Source of the DNA: Haloprofundus salinisoli | GTDB lineage: Archaea > Halobacteriota > Halobacteria > Halobacteriales > Haloferacaceae | Direction of reading: 5' to 3' | Length of the DNA stretch: 64,000 nt | Assembly: GCF_020097815.1 (NCBI RefSeq) | Contig: NZ_CP083663.1 | Span: 1,240,001 to 1,304,000 of the forward strand | In this document: in pieces, positions 34,043 to 40,307 of the stretch | Numbering within the stretch: the stretch's first letter is position 1 | How the letters are laid out: each line of letters begins with the position of its first letter | Position numbers and translations under genes: made by a program | Notes under the pieces: generated by a model | Told to the model about the DNA's origin: nothing | Database searches by the model: none | The model's input: only the letters and a program-made list of their open reading frames with translations

Positions 34043-35038
34043 ATGGACGTCTACGAGCGCATCACCCGGAACGCCGCCGAGGTGGTCACCGAGGACGAGG
34101 TACGCACGCTAGCTGAATCACCCGAGGGCAAGCGGGCGTACGTCGGCTACGAGCCGTCCGGCGTCCTCCACATCGGTCACATGTTGACGGCGACGAAGCT
34201 CATCGACCTGCAGGAAGCGGGCTTCGAGGTCACCGTCCTGCTCGCCGACGTCCACGCCTACCTCAACGACAAAGGGACGTTCGAGGAGATTCGCCGGACG
34301 GCAGAGCGGATGAAAGAACAGTTCATCGCCTACGGCCTTGACGAGTCGAAGACGGAGTTCGTCCTCGGCTCGGAGTTCCAGTTCGACCGCGAGTACGTCC
34401 TCGACCTCCACGCGCTCGAACTGAACACCTCGATGTCGCGCGCCGAACGGGCGATGGCCGAGATTAAGAGCGGCGAGGCGGTGAAAGTCTCGCAGGCGGT
34501 GTACCCGCTGATGCAGGCGCTCGACATCGTCTACCTCGACGTGGACCTCGCCATCGGTGGGATGGAACAGCGCAAAGTTCACATGCTCGCGCGCGACACG
34601 CTGCCGAGCATCGGCGAGGAGTCGCCGACCTGCCTGCACACGCCGCTCATCGCCGACCTCGGGTCGGGCGTCGGCAAGATGTCCTCCTCGAAGGGCGTCA
34701 CCATCTCGATGGAGGACTCGACCGAAGATATCCGAGAGAAGGTCAACGGCGCGTACTGCCCGCCGACGGCCGATCCCGACCCCGATGAAGAGGGGAACGA
34801 ACGCGAGAACCCCGTGCTCCAGATCTTCGAGTACCACGTGTTCCCGCGCTTCGAGACGGTGGTCGTCGAGCGGCCCGAGAAGTACGGCGGCAACCTCGAG
34901 TACGACGACTACGCGTCGCTGGCGGGCGACCTCGAATCCGGCGAACTACACCCGGCGGACGCGAAAGGCGCGCTGGCGACGTACCTCGACGAACTCGTCG
35001 CACCGGGCCGCGAGAAGATTCGACAGGCGAAGCAGTAG
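34043..35038 (+). CDS. tyrS: Tyrosyl-tRNA synthetase
   Basis: A 331-residue class I synthetase of the archaeal TyrRS type. It has YEPSGVLHIGHMLTATKL (HIGH motif, about residues 35-52), the tyrosine-pocket stretch YPLMQALDIVYLDVDLAIGGMEQRK, and KMSSSKGVTI (KMSKS loop, about 213-222). Length is normal. TCATATC about 28 bp before the ATG suggests a leaderless mRNA. No Tyr-rich leader ORF is present upstream, unlike trpS. Confidence 0.95.
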   Translation: MDVYERITRNAAEVVTEDEVRTLAESPEGKRAYVGYEPSGVLHIGHMLTATKLIDLQEAGFEVTVLLADVHAYLNDKGTFEEIRRTAERMKEQFIAYGLDESKTEFVLGSEFQFDREYVLDLHALELNTSMSRAERAMAEIKSGEAVKVSQAVYPLMQALDIVYLDVDLAIGGMEQRKVHMLARDTLPSIGEESPTCLHTPLIADLGSGVGKMSSSKGVTISMEDSTEDIREKVNGAYCPPTADPDPDEEGNERENPVLQIFEYHVFPRFETVVVERPEKYGGNLEYDDYASLAGDLESGELHPADAKGALATYLDELVAPGREKIRQAKQ

Positions 35039-37625: not shown

Positions 37626-38945
37626 ATGAGACAGCTCCTCCGTAACGTCCCGTTCCGTCGACTCTTCCTCGGCCGTCTGGTGACGAACGCGGGCGACAGC
37701 GTCTACTACATCGCTGCGATGTGGCTGGTGTACGATCTGACGGGCGACCCCGCGATGTCGGGCGTCGCCGGGTTTCTCTCCGCCGCACCCTCCGGGTTGC
37801 AGTTTCTCACTGGGCCGCTCGTCGACCGCTGGGACCTCCGGCGCGTGCTCGTCGGGACGCAGCTCGTCCAGTGTCTGCTGATTCTCGCGATTCCCGCCGC
37901 GGCCGCGCTCGACTACCTCTCCGCGCCCCTCGTGCTCGTCGTGATGCCGCTGCTCTCGCTGACGAACCAGTTCGTCTACCCCGCGCAGTCGGCGGCGCTG
38001 CCGCGCCTCGTCGAGCGCGACGAGCTCGTCTCGGCGAACTCGCTGTTCTCGCTGGCGTATCAGGGCGTCGACGCCGGATTCAACGCGCTCGCGGGCGTGC
38101 TCATCGCCGTCGTCGGCGCGGTGACGCTGTTTCTGGTTGACGCCGTCACGTTCGCCGTCGCCGCGGCGCTGTTTGGGGGCGTCGTGATTCCGCCGTCGAA
38201 ACAGATCGACGACGCATCCGCCTCCGAAACGAACGACTCCGACGGAACCGCCGTCGCCGACGGCGGCGACGAGGAGACGGAAGCCGGAGAGGAGGCGAAC
38301 GGGGGCGACTCACCCTCCTACGTCAGTTCGCTCCGAGAGGGCGTCGACTACCTCCGGGGAACCGTCGTGACCTACATCCTCGTCGGCGCGGTCGGCGTCA
38401 ACTTCGCCTCCGGCGCGGCGCTCGCCTCCATGCCAGCCTATGCGGACGCGCTCGGGGGTGCAAGCGTCTATGGAGCGCTCATGGCGGCGCTCGCTGGCGG
38501 AATGTTCGTCGGCGCGGTCGGTGCGTCGAAAGTAGAGGCCATCCCTTTCGGACGACTCAGCGTCGCCAGTTTCTCGCTGGCCGGGATACTGTGGCTCGCC
38601 TCGGTCGTCGCCGCCACGGTGTTCGGCTCCGTCACGGTGGCAGTGGTTCTGTTCGCGCTCGCGTCGATACCCGTCGGCGCGTTCAACGTGCTCATGGCGG
38701 CGCTCGTCCAGTCGATAGTGCCGGAGAGTCTCCTCGGGCGCGTCTCCGCGGTACTCGGTAGCGTCGCGTCGGTGGCAGTGCCACTCGGGTCGCTCGTCGG
38801 CGGCGGCGTCGCGGGGGCGTCCTCCCCGGTCGTCCTCTTCTACGCCGCTGGCGTCGCAATGGTGTGTCTCGGCGGGTATTGGGCCGCGGTGCCGACGCTC
38901 CGCCGGATGCCGTCCGTCGGGGAGACCGAGACGCTGAACGTCTGA
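37626..38945 (+). CDS. MFS exporter, EntS/macrolide-efflux-like
   Basis: A 439-residue MFS protein with 12 predicted membrane segments. FRRLFLGRLVTNAGDSVYYIAAMWLVYDLTG at the start and PLVDRWDLRRVL in the 2-3 loop match the MFS_3/EntS group. A polar acidic insert of about 50 residues (about 195-245) forms the central loop. The substrate is unknown. It probably depends on the upstream half-site array and the wHTH gene. Confidence 0.86.
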   Translation: MRQLLRNVPFRRLFLGRLVTNAGDSVYYIAAMWLVYDLTGDPAMSGVAGFLSAAPSGLQFLTGPLVDRWDLRRVLVGTQLVQCLLILAIPAAAALDYLSAPLVLVVMPLLSLTNQFVYPAQSAALPRLVERDELVSANSLFSLAYQGVDAGFNALAGVLIAVVGAVTLFLVDAVTFAVAAALFGGVVIPPSKQIDDASASETNDSDGTAVADGGDEETEAGEEANGGDSPSYVSSLREGVDYLRGTVVTYILVGAVGVNFASGAALASMPAYADALGGASVYGALMAALAGGMFVGAVGASKVEAIPFGRLSVASFSLAGILWLASVVAATVFGSVTVAVVLFALASIPVGAFNVLMAALVQSIVPESLLGRVSAVLGSVASVAVPLGSLVGGGVAGASSPVVLFYAAGVAMVCLGGYWAAVPTLRRMPSVGETETLNV

Positions 38946-38962
38946 GTCGACTCGGCGACACG

Positions 38963-38970
38963 CTTTTTTC
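38963..38970 (+). promoter_or_regulatory. TATA-like box for the trpS leader transcript
   Basis: CTTTTTTC is centred about 28 bp before the leader ATG at 38994 and 18 bp after the MFS stop codon. This is the spacing of a haloarchaeal TATA box for a leaderless transcript starting at the leader ORF's own AUG. Confidence 0.5.
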
Positions 38971-38993
38971 AGTCCCGGGTCTACTCTCGCTCG

Positions 38994-39071
38994 ATGACAA
39001 CCGCTCCCTGGCGCTGGTGGTCGCCTCTCTCGGGAGCGGACAGTCCCGCCGTCGTCGTCGCCGCGGCGTAA
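38994..39071 (+). CDS. Trp-rich leader peptide upstream of trpS
   Basis: A complete 25-codon ORF, ATG to TAA, reading M-T-T-A-P-W-R-W-W-S-P-L-S-G-A-D-S-P-A-V-V-V-A-A-A. Three of four consecutive codons (39009-39020) are UGG, and Trp is the amino acid charged by the next gene, trpS, 81 nt downstream. The ATG lies 28 bp from a TATA-like box, so it is probably the 5' end of the mRNA. Such layouts act in attenuation: a ribosome short of Trp-tRNA stalls on the UGGs. It is too short for standard gene finders. Function is inferred from layout only. Confidence 0.7.
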   Translation: MTTAPWRWWSPLSGADSPAVVVAAA

Positions 39072-39148
39072 CCCGGCGACCGCGACGCGGGCGCTCACTT
39101 CGTTCTCCTGGGTCGCATCGCATTCGACCAGTACACGAAACCACCAGC
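39013..39148 (+). promoter_or_regulatory. Putative trpS attenuator RNA with alternative pairings
   Basis: Segment GCTGGTGGT (39013-39021, the Trp codons) is a perfect 9-nt complement of ACCACCAGC (39140-39148), which ends 4 nt before the trpS AUG. TGGTCG (39018-39023) can also pair with CGACCA (39125-39130). Competing local hairpins are CGGGA/TCCCG (39031-39035/39044-39048), CCCG/CGGG (39072-39075/39088-39091), and GGTCG/CGACC (39111-39115/39125-39129). There is no U-run, so control at trpS translation start seems more likely than intrinsic termination (inference). Confidence 0.55.
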
Positions 39149-39152
39149 ACAC

Positions 39153-40307
39153 ATGCCAGAGTTCACCGTCACGCCGTACAGCGTCGAGGGCGAAGTCGAC
39201 TACGACCGCCTCCTCGACCAGTTCGGCGCAGACCGACTGACAGACGAACAGCTATCGACCTTTCCGCAGCCGCCGCACCCGCTCCTTCGCCGCGGTGTCT
39301 TCTACGCCGGCCGCGACGTAGAGCGCTTCACGAGCGCCGCCACTCGGGGTGAGACCGTCTCGCTCGTGACGGGACGCGGTCCATCCGGACCGATGCATCT
39401 CGGCCACGTTCTCCCCTTCTACTTCGCGAAGTGGATGCAAGAGGAGACGGGTGCGTACGTCTACGTTCCGCTCTCGGACGACGAGAAGTACTTCTCGAAG
39501 GACCTCTCCTTCGAGGAGATACACGAACACACGCGCGAGAACCTCCGCGACCTCGTCGCGGTCGGTTTCGATCCCGATCGGACGCGCTTCGTCGTCGACA
39601 CCGCGGACGCGGACGTCGTCTACCCGCTCGCCGCCGAGTTCGCCAGGGACATCACGCCCGCGACGGTGGAAGCGACCTACGGCGACCCGCCGAACGTCGG
39701 CCTGGGATTCTATCCGGCGGTGCAGGCGACACACCTCCTGTTGCCGCAACTGCTCTACGGGCGGCACCCGACGCTCGTCCCCATCGCCGTCGACCAGGAC
39801 CCCCACATCCGCGTCTGCCGCGACATCGCCGGCAAGCAGCGCTACGACGTGGAGAAACCGGGGGCACTGCTCTCGAAGTTCTTACCTCGACTAGGCGGCG
39901 GAGGCGGTAAGATGAGCAGTTCCGGCGACGAGCCGAGCATCTACCTCACCGACGACCGCGAGACAGTGAAGCAGAAAGTGTCGAAGTACGCCTTCTCGGG
40001 CGGGCGAGCGGATATCGACGAGCACCGCAAGAAGGGCGGCGACCCCGAGGTGGACATCGCCTACCAGCTGCTGTTCTCGTTCTTCGAGACGGACGACGAG
40101 ACGATCGAGCGACTGGCCCGAGAGTACCGCGCCGGGGAGTTGCTGAGCGGCGAGCTGAAGCAGTTCGCCGCCGAGCGAATCGCCGACTTCCTGGAGGCGC
40201 ACCAGTCCCGGCGACCCGAGGGCGAGATTCGAGAGGCCGTAGAGCCGTACCGTCTGACCGAGGAGGAACGAGCGAAAGTGCGGCCCGACGTGTTCGGCGG
40301 CGAGTGA
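39153..40307 (+). CDS. trpS: Tryptophanyl-tRNA synthetase
   Basis: A 384-residue class I synthetase that charges tRNA-Trp. It has the family start around FTVTPYSVEGEVDYDRLLDQFG, and then SGPMHLGHVLPFYFAKWMQE (HxGH motif, about residues 75-94). KMSSSGDEPSIYL (KMSKS loop, about 252-264) follows. Length fits the archaeal TrpRS. No Shine-Dalgarno stretch or nearby TATA box precedes its ATG. It is probably read from the transcript that starts at the Trp-rich leader ORF. Confidence 0.95.
   Translation: MPEFTVTPYSVEGEVDYDRLLDQFGADRLTDEQLSTFPQPPHPLLRRGVFYAGRDVERFTSAATRGETVSLVTGRGPSGPMHLGHVLPFYFAKWMQEETGAYVYVPLSDDEKYFSKDLSFEEIHEHTRENLRDLVAVGFDPDRTRFVVDTADADVVYPLAAEFARDITPATVEATYGDPPNVGLGFYPAVQATHLLLPQLLYGRHPTLVPIAVDQDPHIRVCRDIAGKQRYDVEKPGALLSKFLPRLGGGGGKMSSSGDEPSIYLTDDRETVKQKVSKYAFSGGRADIDEHRKKGGDPEVDIAYQLLFSFFETDDETIERLAREYRAGELLSGELKQFAAERIADFLEAHQSRRPEGEIREAVEPYRLTEEERAKVRPDVFGGE

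Follow-up and report, generated by a model that had tools for sequence, protein, structure and literature searches.

The tryptophanyl-tRNA synthetase (TrpRS) gene examined here is preceded by a short ORF carrying three Trp codons (39009-39011, 39015-39017 and 39018-39020), which raises the question of whether an archaeal synthetase gene can be controlled by a leader-peptide attenuator and, if so, through which RNA rearrangement. The window, i.e. the whole stretch of 64,000 nucleotides of Haloprofundus salinisoli DNA that was analysed, contains both the ORF and the gene at the positions given in the original prediction (Table 1). The gene is an auxiliary copy (trpS2) because a second, longer TrpRS, the main copy trpS1, is encoded in the same genome (G000:C1:1514803). 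The trpS2 product is 89% identical to that of Haloprofundus marisrubri, the nearest named relative. The gene is present in 147 of 392 genomes in a sample of the order, and no relative of its product was found in viral contigs. Another class I synthetase of the W/Y type (PF00579, probably TyrRS) is encoded 4 kb 5' of trpS2 (34043-35038), adjoining a RIO1 kinase gene.

Table 1 Features of the trpS2 leader region and the evidence on which each is based (positions in the window)
Feature	Position	Strand	Evidence
TATA-like box of the leader transcript	38963..38969	+	AT peak at -30..-26 in 113 leaders; sequence
TA of the -10 (promoter-proximal) element, at -12/-11	38982..38983	+	AT profile; sequence
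Leader ORF, 25 codons, MTTAPWRWWSPLSGADSPAVVVAAA then stop, probably leaderless	38994..39071	+	conserved WxW ORF; in-frame TGG bias
P1 5' arm, CCGCTCCC	39001..39008	+	covariation
Sensor codons Trp-Arg-Trp-Trp	39009..39020	+	sequence; conservation; in-frame TGG bias
P1 3' arm, GGGAGCGG(A), common to P1 and the predicted antiterminator	39032..39040	+	pairs with 39099-39107
P2 hairpin, AGT...GCT base, terminator-like	39042..39095	+	z score; covariation
P2 terminal loop GG[CGUAA]CC, consensus GG[CNUMA]CC	39065..39073	+	two leader alignments
GCTCACTTCGTTCTC: GCTCMCT (invariant) and pyrimidine tract, putative termination signal	39093..39107	+	fixed spacing
TTCGTTCTC, predicted antiterminator partner of the P1 3' arm	39099..39107	+	complementarity
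ACCACCAGC, complementary to the Trp codons (at genus level only)	39140..39148	+	comparison among leaders
trpS2, auxiliary tryptophanyl-tRNA synthetase	39153..40307	+	NF008927, 540 bits (cut-off 478)

The ORF is not a peculiarity of this genome. About 130 trpS2 upstream regions were gathered, and about 126 of them, from at least 12 haloarchaeal families, carry a leader ORF of the WxW type; such conservation was a check proposed with the original prediction. Approximately 118 have a short ORF including WxW (median length 25 aa), while eight further leaders present the same RNA and the same frame with fewer Trp (L039, L070, L072, L077, L114, L128, L141 and L143). Three of these (L039, L114 and L128) are devoid of the typical pair of Trp codons, which counts against a Trp attenuator. 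The segment from the start codon to the 3' arm of P1, a helix described below, contains 180 in-frame TGG triplets, compared to 21 and 5 in the two alternative frames, a bias which is partly built in since most ORFs were picked by their in-frame WxW. The eight hand-placed leaders are free of this selection, as is the observation that zero leaders combine the RNA with an out-of-frame TGG. The codon separating the two Trp varies (CGC, CGT, CGG, CGA, CAG, CAC, CCG, CCC, TGC or TCA) while both Trp are kept. The downstream GGACAGT stretch lies in different frames relative to the leader start according to lineage (69, 6 and 6 leaders). Conservation there thus acts on the RNA, whereas at the Trp codons it acts on the coding sequence.

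Alignment of 113 leaders on their start codon revealed A/T peaks at -36 to -34 (BRE), -30 to -26 (TATA) and -12/-11, the pattern expected for a leaderless transcript beginning at or near the leader ATG. When the 113 loci were aligned on the trpS ATG instead, no AT peaks were observed upstream of it. The TATA-like run proposed by the original prediction about 28 bp before the window ORF is centred at -28. Frame and promoter together suggest that the leader ORF is translated. The whole leader has been lost in four loci (L043, L061, L083 and L097), where a TATA is located directly 5' of trpS; these loci represent natural no-attenuator controls among the trpS2 orthologues. In Haloferax, transcripts are mostly leaderless and transcription-translation coupling has been reported (PMC8576121).

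The leader RNA includes several elements absent from the original prediction: a helix enclosing the Trp codons (P1, formed by 39001-39008 with 39032-39039), a hairpin (P2), a pyrimidine tract (39096-39107 in the window) and a pairing of this tract with the P1 3' arm. Over 74 aligned leaders, 85% of the cells of P1 and P2 are paired, compared to about 40% when the partners are slid. Changes on both sides affect 16 of the 26 pairs, and the covariation score was reached by none of 500 shuffles. P2 is of fixed length and more stable than its dinucleotide shuffles (mean z -2.7, 81 leaders). The leader stop codon TAA lies inside its loop in the window and in many relatives. The GG[CNUMA]CC loop is nearly invariant even where the stop codon is located elsewhere. 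GCTCMCT and the tract follow at a constant distance, 53-55 nt past GGACAGT; the tract is a pyrimidine-rich mix, not a run of U, at fixed spacing behind P2.

The 3' arm of P1 (GGGAGCGGA in the window) is complementary to the tract; in 70 of the 81 leaders, 8 or 9 of the 9 positions can pair. The pairing energy is -11.1 kcal/mol for arms with their own tract, compared to -10.5 for swapped partners (0/5000 permutations) and -8.6 for shuffled sequences; own exceeds swapped in only 94% of draws when a single leader is sampled per family. A tract A opposite the C/T position of the arm was observed in 5 of 19 leaders with T in the arm and in 0 of 62 otherwise (Fisher 4.5e-4, uncorrected for kinship). 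Folding calculations gave an arm:tract pairing probability of 0.05 both for the free RNA and with a ribosome at the stop codon, rising to 0.84 once the ribosome occupied the first Trp codon. With a shuffled tract, the value for the stalled state is still 0.70. Composition therefore accounts for much of the predicted pairing, and less weight is given to folding as a function of ribosome position. Subject to this effect, P1 and the arm:tract helix are predicted to be mutually exclusive hairpins, the choice between them depending on the position of the ribosome. In the window, the arm, P2 and the tract fold into a single long hairpin (z -3.3), and the equilibrium fold of the leader without ribosome already prefers the antiterminator. 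For a switch to operate, P1 would therefore have to win kinetically, by forming first.

The ORF, its frame, the promoter, P1, P2, the arm:tract complementarity and a match between sensor codons and the gene served (see below) all recur in the comparison of leaders. We propose that the trpS2 5' leader is a ribosome-mediated attenuator in which a stalled ribosome frees one RNA arm for an antiterminator, a reading based on comparative sequence data that we consider highly probable. A leaderless transcript would begin at or near 38994 and its 25-codon leader would be translated. With ample Trp-tRNA, the ribosome would clear the Trp codons, P1 would form or re-form around them, and P2 together with the free pyrimidine tract would end transcription before trpS. 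When Trp-tRNA is scarce, the ribosome would stall at UGG in the P1 loop and mask the 5' arm of P1, releasing the 3' arm to pair with the tract. P2 would thereby lengthen into an antiterminator, and trpS would be transcribed. Stalling, termination and the direction of control are the steps that we infer here. Support is stronger for the sensing step than for the output step, since the tract differs from a U-run. With other sensor codons, this chassis may serve other genes, an example being the Ser codons before an auxiliary seryl-tRNA synthetase gene (serS2).

A covariance model of the leader (R1) and a model excluding the ORF (R2) were used to follow the element in other genomes. R1 identified one strong site in the genome of the window (E 3e-24). 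A second match there (G000:C1:1128512, L165) lies inside a thioredoxin-like gene and was attributed to chance. Five weak matches from the model searches (L212, L213, L221, L263 and L264) are located in or among coding sequence and were dropped. R1 sites occur in 179 of the 392 genomes of the order, exceeding the 147 carriers of trpS2. Genomes of families f4 and f5 carry it 5' of the main gene trpS1 (NF008928, 1020 bits), mostly with WRW leaders, and in one genome (G132) it lies 5' of trpD-trpF (TIGR01245) with the leader MLSAFRSWSWRWYRSGKRTVS. With R2, 59 genomes from the family of the window that lack trpS2 or its leader gave no site, 80 further genomes gave chance-level matches only, and, across 295 genomes of the phylum, matches were confined to haloarchaea. 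A second leader copy with a GTG start (L214, G177:C6:266822-266949) is followed by no long ORF that could be found.

In two genomes (G266 and G284; L210 and L219), a leader beginning MESTSRSRSQSSFWEVDS precedes a seryl-tRNA synthetase gene (TIGR00414, 434 bits), and its Ser codons are of several kinds (TCT, TCC and TCG). These serS genes are auxiliary: the housekeeping serS of both genomes lacks the leader and is preceded by an ordinary promoter. G284 also holds a third copy (L207, G284:C2:77055-77177), in which a Ser-rich leader has been retained before a serS pseudogene with an in-frame stop. An auxiliary serS with a Ser leader might constitute a self-resistance or starvation system. The agreement of the sensor codon with the amino acid of the gene, which for Ser concerns one genus, is the strongest single argument in favour of codon-dependent stalling. 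Other copies precede GNAT acetyltransferase genes (L195, L209, L211, L217 and L218), a SAM methyltransferase gene (L199) and an ABC exporter gene (L215). No codon is repeated in their leaders, nearly all of which retain intact P1 and P2. It may be guessed that these copies respond to drugs that block translation, making them candidate antibiotic-inducible attenuators.

The original prediction had placed the switch elsewhere: the Trp codons would pair with a segment just before the trpS start and hide it, and a stalled ribosome would expose it. A perfect 9-nt complementarity between 39013-39021 and 39140-39148 does exist, and a match of at least 9 nt has a probability of 0.006 against shuffled 40-nt trpS upstream sequences. 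However, it is kept only in the genus and near relatives (its CACCAGC part in 5/5 species of the genus), and over 77 leaders the longest match averages 5.4 nt compared to 4.8 nt for shuffled sequences. Moreover, the predicted accessibility of the trpS start is barely altered by a stalled ribosome (0.51 without, 0.54 with). This pairing is probably not the switch and was discarded as a general one, although it may have an additional clade-specific role. A CACCAGCA box just 5' of the trpS start (39139-39152) recurs in each of the five species of the genus and is possibly a translation or clade-specific element. Translational attenuation in a broader sense, in which a leader under ribosome control rearranges the RNA to open or hide the trpS start rather than a terminator, would fit the 9-nt complementarity, the moderately constant distance between tract and ATG (52-77 nt in most leaders) and a tract that is no classical U-run. 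We consider it unlikely. Three observations favour a transcriptional output: nothing beyond the tract belongs to the conserved part, the stretch from there to trpS lacks conservation, and the trpS start is predicted to be about as accessible in one state as in the other. Attenuation thus probably acts on transcription. The idea of a Trp leader attenuator for an archaeal trpS draws strong support from the conservation, the frame, the covariation and the sensor-gene match, while the mechanics initially attached to it are not supported.

Three further alternatives were weighed. If a protein bound a structured RNA, as in autoregulation by TrpRS, and the ORF were incidental or encoded a small protein, this would account for the near invariance of the P2 loop, which a plain terminator does not need. 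This explanation is improbable given that Trp is kept in frame around a variable middle codon and that the sensor codons swap along with the gene served. Nascent-peptide arrest sensing free tryptophan, as in TnaC, might be suspected from a short conserved Trp peptide that continues with the residues ADS in many leaders. But the peptide after the Trp codons differs among lineages, and its reading frame with respect to the conserved RNA is not constant; the conserved nascent-peptide residues beyond the sensor codons that are typical of TnaC are absent, and the Ser leaders of serS indicate that codons or charged tRNA are sensed, so that we regard arrest of this type as very improbable. Direct sensing in the manner of a T-box, with uncharged tRNA-Trp binding the UGG of the P1 loop and no translation, is suggested by the presence of UGG in a hairpin loop and by targets that are synthetase genes. 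It is hardly credible in view of UGG being in frame with the start codon (180 versus 26 occurrences) and of the variety of Ser codons in the serS leader. In addition, a cmscan of 38700-39400 against Rfam returned two chance-level matches only, with no T-box, no Trp leader and no matching family.

The proposed ribosome-mediated attenuator, with stalling at the sensor codons, may be one member of a larger set. We find it fairly probable that haloarchaea possess modular attenuators, the first in archaea, built on a chassis of P1, P2 and tract with exchangeable codons and serving Trp (trpS2, trpS1, trpD-trpF), Ser (serS2) and possibly antibiotic induction (GNAT, methyltransferase and ABC exporter genes). 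Text searches of the open-access literature, with subscription papers mostly outside their reach, returned no case of archaeal leader-peptide attenuation. Ribosome-mediated attenuation of this kind appears to be new for the whole domain Archaea, and modular. If the proposal is correct, attenuation of this kind has also arisen in archaea, on an architecture of its own that is unrelated to the bacterial one, and the leaders would supply functional evidence for transcription-translation coupling in haloarchaea. They would equally offer a ready reporter for termination of archaeal RNA polymerase at a hairpin followed by a pyrimidine tract. The replacement of Trp by Ser codons, in step with the gene that follows, amounts to a natural experiment through which the idea can be tested directly.

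In bacteria, leader-peptide attenuation belongs to textbook knowledge and requires transcription and translation to be tightly coupled. Like the bacterial trp, his and ilv leaders (E. coli trpL type), the haloarchaeal element combines a short ORF that carries cognate codons with alternative hairpins having one arm in common and with a terminator-like hairpin before the gene. Unlike them, its ORF is probably leaderless, its sensor codons occupy the loop of the hairpin whose formation would free the terminator, its stop codon is found in the conserved pentaloop of the terminator-like hairpin, and a mixed pyrimidine tract replaces the U-run; there is no sequence relation. With the T-box riboswitches of Firmicutes it shares a codon-like triplet in a hairpin loop and, as proposed here, the control of aminoacyl-tRNA synthetase genes and an antiterminator, but it differs by the lack of a T-box match, by an in-frame ORF that is probably translated and by the use of several codons for one amino acid. 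TrpY of Methanothermobacter exerts tryptophan control over trp genes. This archaeal function would be common to both systems, TrpY being a protein repressor acting at the promoter rather than an RNA or ribosome device. The indolmycin-resistance TrpRS of Streptomyces is an auxiliary TrpRS located behind a Trp leader-peptide attenuator. The haloarchaeal trpS2 shares the Trp leader with this system, and differs in domain of life, RNA architecture and enzyme type.
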